A stretch of 64,000 nucleotides of DNA from the NCBI RefSeq assembly GCF_000564855.1, contig NZ_AYXG01000074.1, positions 62,001-126,000 of the forward strand, written 5' to 3'. The notes beneath the pieces are model-generated. The model had not been told where the DNA came from, did no database searches, and saw only the letters and a list, made by a program, of their open reading frames with translations. A program made the translations under genes and the position numbers. This DNA comes from Actinokineospora spheciospongiae. GTDB lineage: Bacteria > Actinomycetota > Actinomycetes > Mycobacteriales > Pseudonocardiaceae. Of the stretch, positions 3,137-6,002 are shown piece by piece (positions within the stretch are counted from its first letter, which is position 1; each line of letters opens with the position of its first letter).

Positions 3137-4360
3137 ATGAGCGAGCAGCACTACCTTGTCGGGCTCGACCTCGCGGGCCGCCGCGTCGTCGTGGTCGGCG
3201 GCGGCATCGTCGCCCAGCGCCGCCTGCCCCGCCTCGTCGGCTCCGGCGCCCTGGTCGAGGTCGTCTCGCCCGAGGCCACCCCGTCGGTGGAGGCCATGGC
3301 CGACGCGGGCGAACTGGTCTGGCACCGGCGCGAGTACCGCCCCGGCGACCTCTCCGGCGCCTGGTACGTGCTGTGCTGCACCTCCGACACCGCGGTCAAC
3401 GTCGCCGTCGCCGAAGAGGCCGAACGGGTCCGGGTGTTCTGCGTGCGCGCGGACGCGGGCAGCGAGGGCAGCGCCGTGACCCCCGCCACCGGCGAGTACG
3501 AGGGCCTGCTGGTGGGTGTGCTCGCCGGTGGGGCGCACCAGCGCTCGGCGGCCGTGCGCGACGGCCTCCTCGACGCCCTGCGCGAGGGCCGGGTGCCCGA
3601 CGGGGCGCGGGCACCGGAGCTGCCCGGGGTGGCGCTCGTCGGCGGCGGGCCCGGCGACCCGGAGCTGATCACCGTGCGCGGCAGGCGGCTGCTCGCCCGC
3701 GCCGACGTCGTCGTCGCCGACCGCCTCGGCCCGCGCGAACTGCTCGACGAGCTGGCCCCCACGGTCGAGGTGATCGACGCCGCCAAGATCCCCTACGGCC
3801 GCGCCGCCACCCAGGACGCCATCAACGACGCCCTGATCACCCACGCCAAGGCGGGCAAGTTCGTCGTCCGGCTCAAGGGCGGCGACCCGTACCTGTTCGG
3901 CCGCGGCTTCGAGGAGCTGATCGCCTGCGCCGAGGCGGGCGTGCCGGTCACCGTCGTCCCCGGCATCACCTCGGCGTTCTCGGTGCCCGCCGCCGTCGAC
4001 GTGCCGGTCACCCACCGCGGCGTCGCGCACGAGGTCGTGGTGGTCTCCGGGCACATCGGCCCGGACGACCCCGCCTCGCTGACCGACTGGGACGCGCTGG
4101 CCCGGCTCGGCGGCACCGTTGTGATCATGATGGGCGTGGACAAGCTGGACCGGTTCGCCGCCGTGCTGATCGCGGGTGGGCGGGCGGGGGACACCCCCGT
4201 GGCGGTGGTCCAGGAGGGCACGACGCGCAACCAGCGGGTGCTCCGGTCTACTTTGGACCGGGTGGCGGCGGACGTGGTCGAGCGGGGGATTCGCCCGCCC
4301 GCGGTGACGGTCGTCGGGCCGGTGGCGGGGCTGGCGCGGGAACTGGTGGGGCGGGACTAG
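3137..4360 (+). CDS. cysG: Siroheme synthase: precorrin-2 dehydrogenase fused to uroporphyrinogen-III C-methyltransferase
   Basis: A 407-residue cytosolic fusion enzyme for siroheme synthesis; siroheme is the cofactor of sulfite and nitrite reductases. Residues of about 1-160 are the NAD-dependent precorrin-2 dehydrogenase/ferrochelatase part (VVVVGGGIVAQRRL near 18-31). Residues of about 165-405 are the SAM-dependent methyltransferase. Its motifs are VALVGGGPGDPELITVRG near 167-184, VVRLKGGDPYLFGRG near 241-255, and VPGITSAFSVPAAVDVPVTHR. The length suits the shorter actinobacterial form. The ATG has no ribosome binding site, but a -10-like hexamer ends 6 nt upstream, so the mRNA is probably leaderless. 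It is convergent with the XRE regulator downstream. Confidence 0.93.
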   Translation: MSEQHYLVGLDLAGRRVVVVGGGIVAQRRLPRLVGSGALVEVVSPEATPSVEAMADAGELVWHRREYRPGDLSGAWYVLCCTSDTAVNVAVAEEAERVRVFCVRADAGSEGSAVTPATGEYEGLLVGVLAGGAHQRSAAVRDGLLDALREGRVPDGARAPELPGVALVGGGPGDPELITVRGRRLLARADVVVADRLGPRELLDELAPTVEVIDAAKIPYGRAATQDAINDALITHAKAGKFVVRLKGGDPYLFGRGFEELIACAEAGVPVTVVPGITSAFSVPAAVDVPVTHRGVAHEVVVVSGHIGPDDPASLTDWDALARLGGTVVIMMGVDKLDRFAAVLIAGGRAGDTPVAVVQEGTTRNQRVLRSTLDRVAADVVERGIRPPAVTVVGPVAGLARELVGRD

Positions 4361-4400
4361 AGCCCGGGATCGGTTGCTGTTCCGGGGTTTTTGCGGGTGT

Positions 4401-4547
4401 GCCCGGCTGGGTGGGTGTGTTTGGCCGGGGCCCCTATGGCGATCATGTGCTCCAGTGTGACCGGGTGGGGCTGAAAAGATGCCCCACCGCCCAGGCAGGC
4501 TGTCACATGATCGCCACCCCCGGCCAAACACATCCACCCACCCGGGC
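4401..4547. repeat. Large nested inverted repeat between convergent genes
   Basis: The left arm (4401-4449) and right arm (4504-4547) are reverse complements over about 44 nt. There are a few mismatches, and the left arm carries about 5 extra bases between its GGCCGGGG and GGCGATCATGTG blocks. Inside the 54-nt loop lies a second, perfect 8-bp hairpin: GGTGGGGC at 4464-4471 and GCCCCACC at 4481-4488, with a TGAAAAGAT loop. It sits between the 3' ends of cysG and the XRE gene, so it may act as a bidirectional terminator. Its length exceeds what a terminator needs, and a dispersed repetitive element is the main alternative. Confidence 0.8.
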
Positions 4548-4561
4548 AGTTCGCTTGCCGG

Positions 4562-4664
4562 GCCGGCGGTTTTCGGGGTGGTCGGCAGGTTGTTGCTGCG
4601 CCGGTGTTGTTCGGGTGGGTGGTGGGCGGGCCGCCGGTTTGTTGGGTGGTCGGCTGGCTGCGCC
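4562..4664. repeat. Imperfect direct repeat pair next to the palindrome
   Basis: The segments at 4562-4602 and 4630-4664 share the order GCCG(G/C)CGG-TT-GGGTGGTCGGC-GG-CTGCGCC with small insertions. They lie between the nested palindrome and the 3' end of the XRE gene. The stretch 4548-4670 has no coding signal. Confidence 0.45.
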
Positions 4665-4670
4665 TGCGAG

Positions 4671-5594
4671 TTAATCCGGCCACTCCCAGCGGGCGCAGAG
4701 GATGCCCGGGCCGAAGTCGAGGGCGACCGCGTGGGCCTTGCCGTCGGCGGTGACCTCCAGCTTCTTGCGGTTGGTCACCTGGTCGTCGGCGTCGAGGGTG
4801 TGCTGCTCCAGGTAGACGGGCAGGGCACGGGGGTCGAACCGCAGCTCCAGCACGAACTCGCGGACCGGTGAGGTGAACTTGCGGCAGTACGCGTCGTCGC
4901 CGCGGGAGTACGGGGGGCCGGGGTGGTGCAGGGCGTAGTCGACGATCGTCGTCTCGCCGCGGCTCAGGGGCTGGTCGAGCATGATCTCCGCGGCCATCAA
5001 GCCCGCGGTCGGGTCGTGGGCGACCCGGCCGATGCGGCAGTTGTCGCCCGAGGTGACCTCGGGGAACGGGCGGCCGGGCAGTTCCAGGTCGTAGACCATC
5101 AGCGTGCGGTCGGCGCCGTCGCGCTCGGCGCGGAAGACCTGGCGGACCGACACCGACTTCTCGCCGCGGTCGACCGCGACCTCCATGCGGTCGTGCTGCG
5201 AGAGCTTCGTCAGCGCGGAGTCGGTGGTGAAGTCGATGCGCCGCAACAGGTGCGAGACCGGTTCGCTGTTGCCCCACAGCGCTTCCACGGTCAGCCGGGA
5301 CGACTCGCGGTTGACCCGGCCGCGCGGTCGGGGCGGGCCGAGCAGGGCGATGAGCGACCCGGTGGGCACGCCGAGGACGTCCTCGAGGTGCCCGAGCGCG
5401 GCCAGCGACTCCGCGCGCTCCGGTCGGCGCCTGCCGGACTGCCAGTAGCTCAGCGCGGTGACGCTGATGGACACCCCGCGTGCGCGCAGCCGGTACTGGA
5501 TGCGGTCGAGGCTCAACCCGCTCGCCTGGATCGCCGAGCGCAGCGCCACGGGGAACGCATCGGCGACGGGCGATTCGGACGGTTCGACCGTCAT
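4671..5594 (-). CDS. XRE-family helix-turn-helix regulator with an uncharacterised C-terminal domain
   Basis: A 307-residue protein if translation starts at ATG 5594. Residues of about 12-75 carry a helix-turn-helix (IQASGLSLDRIQYRLRARG, SVTALSYWQSGRRRPERAES). About 230 further residues have a beta-rich pattern that I do not recognise (VSVRQVFRAERDGADRTLMV, YSRGDDAYCRKF). An in-frame ATG at 5660 has a good GGGAG site, but codons between 5660 and 5594 have far lower third-position GC than the rest, so the shorter form is preferred. It is transcribed away from aspS. Ligand and targets are unknown. Confidence 0.72.
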   Translation of the reverse strand: MTVEPSESPVADAFPVALRSAIQASGLSLDRIQYRLRARGVSISVTALSYWQSGRRRPERAESLAALGHLEDVLGVPTGSLIALLGPPRPRGRVNRESSRLTVEALWGNSEPVSHLLRRIDFTTDSALTKLSQHDRMEVAVDRGEKSVSVRQVFRAERDGADRTLMVYDLELPGRPFPEVTSGDNCRIGRVAHDPTAGLMAAEIMLDQPLSRGETTIVDYALHHPGPPYSRGDDAYCRKFTSPVREFVLELRFDPRALPVYLEQHTLDADDQVTNRKKLEVTADGKAHAVALDFGPGILCARWEWPD

Positions 5595-6002
5595 CGCATG
5601 GCGGAGCCTTTCGTTCTGGTGAAGTTCACGAACCGGCTCGCGGGTGACACCGCTACCCATGTTCACTCCCGGGGTTACCGCTTACGCCCTGATAAGCACA
5701 GTACGTCCTGGTAGGCCGCATGGGTAGCGCCAGTGTTAATTCCAGGGTGACGACGTCACTGCCTCCAGTGACAAGATGACCCCAAAGACCTATGGGCTAT
5801 ACCGCCGAACGTTTCAACAAACGCGTCCGAATGGCTCAATACGAAGGTATCGCCATTCCGGGCGGGTGGGCCCCGGGTGCGGGGTTAAACCTGCTCGACG
5901 CGTGCCGGGGGCCGTTGGCTAGCCTGACCAGCACAGGCGGTGCACGGAGGTCTCCACGACCCCGCGCCGCGTCCCACCATCTGGACTAGGAGAACGCGAC
6001 CC
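5595..6002. promoter_or_regulatory. Divergent regulatory region between XRE gene and aspS, with inverted repeats
   Basis: About 400 bp of lower-GC sequence. It contains GTGAC-GAC-GTCAC (5747-5759) running into TCACTG-CCTC-CAGTGA (5756-5771), two inverted repeats sharing bases that could form alternative structures or a protein site. TAGCCT at 5920-5925 is a candidate -10 for aspS, giving a leader of about 70 nt. AGGAG at 5988-5992 is the aspS ribosome binding site. A 65-codon open frame (5792-5989) in this leader has poor codon bias and is not called. Confidence 0.5.

Follow-up and report, generated by a model that had tools for sequence, protein, structure and literature searches.

The window, a 64-kb stretch of Actinokineospora spheciospongiae DNA, contains two convergent genes separated by a long nested palindrome. 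The features of this locus are:

3137–4360, + strand: upstream convergent neighbour gene with NAD_binding_7 and TP_methylase domains (Pfam)
4382–4397, + strand: left flanking box (CCGG..TTT), less conserved and outside the sharply bounded palindrome
4400–4548, + strand: whole palindromic element, 149 nt, delimited by arm pairing, RNA fold and the covariance models R1 and R2
4400–4430, + strand: left outer arm, a covarying stem
4431–4436, + strand: asymmetric bulge CCCCTA, 6 nt unpaired, after GGGG; similar letters recur across genera
4437–4449, + strand: inner stem, 5' side (TGGCGATCATGTG), 13 nt, 100% complementary to 4504–4516
4464–4488, + strand: perfect apical 8-bp hairpin GGTGGGGC-TGAAAAGAT-GCCCCACC, with TGAAAAGAT as the loop
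4504–4516, + strand: inner stem, 3' side
4518–4548, + strand: right outer arm
4553–4586, + strand: right flanking box (GCCGGGCCGGCGGTTTTCGGGGTGGTCGGC)
4627–4668, + strand: the right box region again, in diverged form (79% against 4559–4600); comparable with the 66-bp tandem units described below
4671–5549 or 4671–5666, − strand: downstream convergent neighbour gene, with an orthologue in each of the 16 Actinokineospora genomes

The first-pass annotation had described a nested palindrome of about 147 bp between convergent genes and had likened it to a non-autonomous repetitive element or a structured RNA. The palindrome is real, its limits being one base wider on each side, and the two neighbours do converge on it. 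The near-perfect pairing of the arms was confirmed (outer arms of 31 nt each, 94% complementary; inner arms of 13 nt without a mismatch), as were the perfect hairpin in the loop and the GATCATGTG/CACATGATC edges, which are seen at the inner ends of the 13-nt arms. The RNA fold of 4381–4570 reached −131.3 kcal/mol compared with −90.7 ± 4.9 kcal/mol in 200 shuffles (z −8.2), none of which was as good. The reverse complement of the palindrome folds nearly as well as the + strand; the bulge is present on the 5' side alone, so that the palindrome has a direction. The Rfam search of 3900–5100 (E up to 1) gave no match, and neither did the searches of plasmid sequences and viral contigs for the repeat or the Pfam search with the neighbour 4671–5549 (E 0.001). 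A terminator-like hairpin with a T-run is located at 4363–4386, directly behind the + strand gene and upstream of the palindrome; it is one of seven small terminator-like sites in 4300–4720, compared with 0.5 in shuffles. The palindrome probably acts on its two neighbour genes in a passive way, perhaps by hindering read-through from one into the other.

The own assembly (G000) consists of 262 contigs and holds at least 40 copies of the element (40 forward places were scored); 12 of these are internal, and the other 28 stop no more than 5 bases from a contig end. Since 28 of 40 copies are found at contig ends, the repeat itself breaks the assembly; it is a likely main cause of the fragmentation of this draft and accounts for its many breaks at intergenic sites. 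Pattern searches in the same genome counted 29 cores (at most two mismatches), 291 arms (at most three mismatches) and 93 arms with GGGGCCCCT. Controls with reversed patterns gave 0 in two of the pattern scans and at most one per strand, in a few genomes, in the third. An exact scan for the GATCATG core in one genome per species (84,980 species, a set from which the own genome is possibly absent) yielded 67 stretches, all from Actinokineospora bangkokensis or A. pegani. Among the 16 Actinokineospora genomes, this core occurs in three (G000, G002 and G007; 29, 120 and 18 copies), and from one congener to another the pattern is counted between 0 and 120 times.

The wider family was covered by a looser pattern and by covariance models. 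The pattern GGGTGGNNNNNNTTN{3,6}GGGGCCCCT was present in 12 of the 16 Actinokineospora genomes (up to 93 times) and in none of 374 other family genomes. Model R1, built from 37 copies, matched 38 of 297 family genomes, among them 15 of the 16 Actinokineospora genomes, and seven of 46 genera overall; ten candidates were scored per family genome and the copy numbers there are thus lower bounds. The distribution of model and pattern matches means that the architecture is common across the genus and that the subfamilies differ by species. Model R2 was built solely from 16 hairpins of other genera (L194 and L205 were dropped before the alignment was made). It nevertheless found the window palindrome as its one match in the 64-kb window (4407–4541, + strand, E 1e-8), with no match on the minus strand, and R1 recognised it on the same strand as a single hairpin (4400–4547, E 1.7e-32). 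Among 298 genomes of the order, R2 matched eight, which are six Actinokineospora genomes, G022 and one complete genome of a further genus, and none outside the family; one hairpin in the complete genome lies near a diverged DUF222-like frame. The repetitive element suspected from the sequence is therefore supported by the search of the own and related genomes that had been proposed with it: many copies were found, mostly in intergenic 3' regions, and the element is neither single-copy nor lacking in conservation. A single copy with Actinokineospora-like arms in another genus (L194 in G214) suggests transfer between genera.

The structure is conserved more strictly than the letters that form it. 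In the 37-row alignment, 96.3% of the cells fall in standard pairs compared with 85.7% in shuffles, and 18 of 43 pairs show two-sided changes. The covariation score of 0.289 was reached by none of 500 shuffles, which scored 0.102, and slid versions gave no more than 0.049; copy L030 had been dropped before the structure alignment behind R1 was made. Between species, even the inner GATCATG stem is swapped for other paired sequence, and the outer arms vary more than the core; the letters that recur resemble GGGGCCCCT on the 5' side and TAGC on the 3' side. Deviations in the two long stems on the + strand are more often C.A than G.U: about 93 versus 13 cells in 91 copies, as read from the alignment after the badly matching copies L118_4292, L137_6827 and L030 had been dropped, and 32 versus 18 cells in 37 diverse copies. 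This excess leans towards the minus strand as the folded one, the counts not being independent events.

The copies are found mostly in convergent or 3'-flanking gaps, that is, beside gene 3' ends. In the 67 loci from two congeners, in which genes were called by a codon-usage script, an element is present in 38 of 82 gaps between convergent genes, 21 of 260 between codirectional genes and 1 of 70 between divergent ones, and the excess in convergent gaps is pronounced (Fisher p 1e-11 vs divergent, 1e-13 vs codirectional); L013 and L058 are one place that was counted twice in one gene-context tally. This location, the strong covariation, the recurrence of the apical loop and bulge, and a C.A excess of the kind that wobble pairs in a folded minus strand would give would all suit a structured 3'-end RNA motif, selected as a terminator, an mRNA stabiliser or an insulator between convergent genes and spread by duplication and gene conversion, its mobility being incidental. 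We nevertheless consider such a motif unlikely. The window site is without the element in all 15 congeners, though the right-hand neighbour gene is present in all 16 genomes, and the GATCATG form is confined to three of them. No T-tract directly follows the long stem on either strand, as it would in an intrinsic terminator, and no Rfam family was matched. Terminator-like left flanks accompany 8.6% of 93 copies versus 3.0% in shuffles, figures that also left the idea of terminator targeting by the left flanking box weak. Moreover, pairs of the hairpins enclose a nuclease gene in other genera (see below). As between a mobile DNA, an RNA or an element that is both, the distribution leans towards a mobile DNA.

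The flanks point in the same direction. Where two elements are at least 95.5% alike (354 pairs, mean 97.6%), their flanks 0–25 nt out are 71% (left) and 79% (right) alike, compared with a shuffled background of 58%, and by 50–100 nt they are near this background. No base-level empty site could be aligned across congeners, the intergenic DNA being too diverged between species. Two orthologous sites with both neighbours shared hold an element in two species each, each with the subfamily of its own species. These two sites also fit old inheritance with homogenisation, in which a vertically inherited repeat family is kept alike within species by gene conversion and has no present mobility; REP13E12 loci are described as gene-conversion hotspots in M. 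tuberculosis in the part of PMC13061034 that deals with them. However, by a rough estimate independent insertions that draw on one common class of sites would give about two shared ones, and both the empty window site in the other species and the range of counts among congeners speak against the purely vertical explanation, which we regard as quite improbable.

Movement by a RAYT (Y1) transposase, as in REP/REPIN-type palindromic repeats, is the least probable explanation and in our opinion very improbable. The element resembles these repeats in being palindromic, extragenic and present in about 20–120 copies by strict patterns, in its convergent bias and facing pairs, and in a GTAG that many A. 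bangkokensis copies carry in their right flank. REP sequences, too, are dispersed palindromes with a preference for convergent and unidirectional gaps, and the element described here is likewise extragenic and found in such gaps; however, REP sequences are described as 20–40 bp long, with GTAG/CGTC tags and a Y1 enzyme, and the phyla given for REP/RAYT in the section concerned do not include Actinobacteria (PMC3733652, in part). Here the element measures 149 nt, GTAG has no fixed place at the hairpin foot, and Y1_Tnp (PF01797) had no match in the drafts G000, G002 and G007. The only Y1 transposases in the 16 genomes of the genus are G014:C1:3353181–3353546 and G006:C1:4831705–4832067, and neither genome has the GATCATG core. 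A RAYT as the mover was rejected since it is contradicted by the missing RAYT.

ERIC sequences are about 127 bp long. MITEs and ERIC-like repeats are non-autonomous, multi-copy, long imperfect palindromes in intergenic DNA (PMC2229807, in the part concerned), and the window element is likewise non-autonomous, multi-copy, inverted-repeat DNA; it differs in that neither a DDE transposase parent nor a clear target-site duplication was identified and in that its outer arms vary more than its core. It behaves like a MITE or a REP element, yet it belongs neither to REP/RAYT nor to the classical MITEs. The mode of replacement recalls IS1272, in which one palindrome takes the place of another, leaving sharp ends and no duplication, according to the relevant part of PMC5678879; this fits the flank boundaries found here, although IS1272 encodes its own transposase.

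The hairpins of other genera connect the repeat with a nuclease family. Applied to 13 genomes from six other genera, R1 gave up to 26 matches per genome, several of them as inverted pairs 1.4–2.0 kb apart. Seven inverted pairs form terminal inverted repeats of about 130–385 bp, 90–96% alike, each enclosing an open frame of the DUF222-HNH type, and the four enclosed proteins that were scanned by Pfam all contained DUF222 (E 2e-36 to 4e-31) and HNH. No clear target-site duplication was seen at the ends of the seven elements. At another locus (L222), two hairpin matches point in the same direction, unlike the seven inverted pairs. Of the 55 hairpins listed for four genomes from three other genera, 42 lie at most 800 bp from a DUF222 gene (0.48 expected), and all 42 face the gene. 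By genome, these are 19 of 19 in G022, 12 of 14 in G189, 4 of 4 in G034 and 7 of the 18 listed in G069, where 18 of 22 matches were listed and used. Most gaps between hairpin and gene fall into narrow classes (14 of 19 at 235–275 bp in G022, 8 of 12 at 181–192 bp in G189), the upstream gaps being constant. The lists of the other nine of the 13 genomes, which were read and not scripted, held no hairpin near a DUF222 gene. DUF222-HNH genes are multi-copy in several of the searched genomes. A similar arrangement is seen in the A. bangkokensis and A. pegani loci, where, of 16 pairs of neighbouring elements, 14 are turned towards each other like the DUF222 pairs. Part of the cross-genus likeness of the hairpins could be convergence, the groups sharing architecture but little sequence.

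We take DUF222-HNH and mycobacterial 13E12 to be one family (PMC10589994), likened here by description. The 13E12/DUF222-HNH family is known as repetitive (PMC10589994, in part), and REP13E12 figures in the passages concerned as a repeat or conversion hotspot without a defined function and with no mention of hairpin ends (PMC10589994; PMC13061034). The likeness is that hairpins found by a model built from Actinokineospora face DUF222 + HNH genes; the difference is that the own genome has the hairpins without the gene. DUF222 had no match in the drafts of the GATCATG subfamily (G000, G002 and G007). The genus has three DUF222 copies in two of 16 genomes, with no convincing hairpin beside any of them (best E 0.24), and no DUF222 remnants were detected in the Actinokineospora element loci at E 0.1. 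The window site carries a single hairpin and no facing pair around a DUF222-HNH gene. No autonomous parent with matching ends was found in the own genome, candidate parents being seen in other genera alone. The predicted DUF222-HNH structure (mean pLDDT 76, pTM 0.40) had no PDB match at E 0.001; there were weak matches to HNH enzymes, ParB and unrelated proteins, and among solved relatives only the HNH part of IscB appeared (E 0.013–0.06).

Taken together, the palindrome is probably one non-autonomous member of a mobile repeat family that is dispersed, forms hairpins, is recognised by its structure and is related to the ends of DUF222-HNH elements. What the mobilising enzyme would recognise is the palindrome's own structure, in extruded or single-stranded DNA or, less likely, in RNA. 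New copies would enter beside gene ends, often at sites already holding older copies, and an incoming copy may replace the old core and leave the old arms as decaying flanks, comparable to the stem-loop-replacing transposition of IS1272. The engine that spreads the repeat would most likely be a DUF222-HNH nuclease, a little-understood protein that would cut DNA and let repair copy the element. Because neither a DUF222 gene in the own genome nor a target-site duplication was found, this enzymatic step is one that we infer; in such a genome the copies would be stranded relics, or else owe their movement to an enzyme that the draft lacks or that belongs to another family. We propose more tentatively, as a realistic possibility short of an even chance, that DUF222-HNH genes supply the coding part of a class of bacterial mobile elements in its own right, whose long-hairpin ends are conserved in structure and hardly in sequence, which the HNH nuclease moves by DNA (or RNA) structure with no need for a transposase of a known class, and of whose gene-less derivatives, including that in the window, Actinokineospora is full. 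Searches of the open-licence PMC literature yielded no description of hairpin ends on DUF222 elements or of this repeat. The recurrent facing hairpin pair gives the DUF222-HNH family defined ends and a testable reason for its repetition. If the proposal is true, a nuclease-linked, structure-recognised palindrome joins the small set of ways in which repeats spread in bacteria.

A candidate autonomous copy in A. bangkokensis was rejected: the 1.7-kb pair in L137 encloses DddA-like/Imm1 genes and no transposase, and its second palindrome is truncated. The genes between the two element copies (L137 5684–6824) code for a DddA-like toxin, a DNA deaminase, and for an Imm1 immunity protein. To the right of the core, 66-bp units (arm and flanking box) occur in tandem, with up to about seven units decaying outward. 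Such arrays of 66–68-bp units (right arm and right box) are:

L020, 1625–2010
L050, 1137–1588
L031, 36–272
L042, 33–278
L043, 36–280

The arrays were possibly left by repeated insertion or by replication slippage at the hairpin. A nested-insertion model for them is unproven, as the unit numbers differ between left and right (one left and about six right in L020). Beyond the right box, the right flanks of L021–L028 in the own genome carry a further repeated G-rich sequence (CTGCGCCGGTGGGGTTCG-like).
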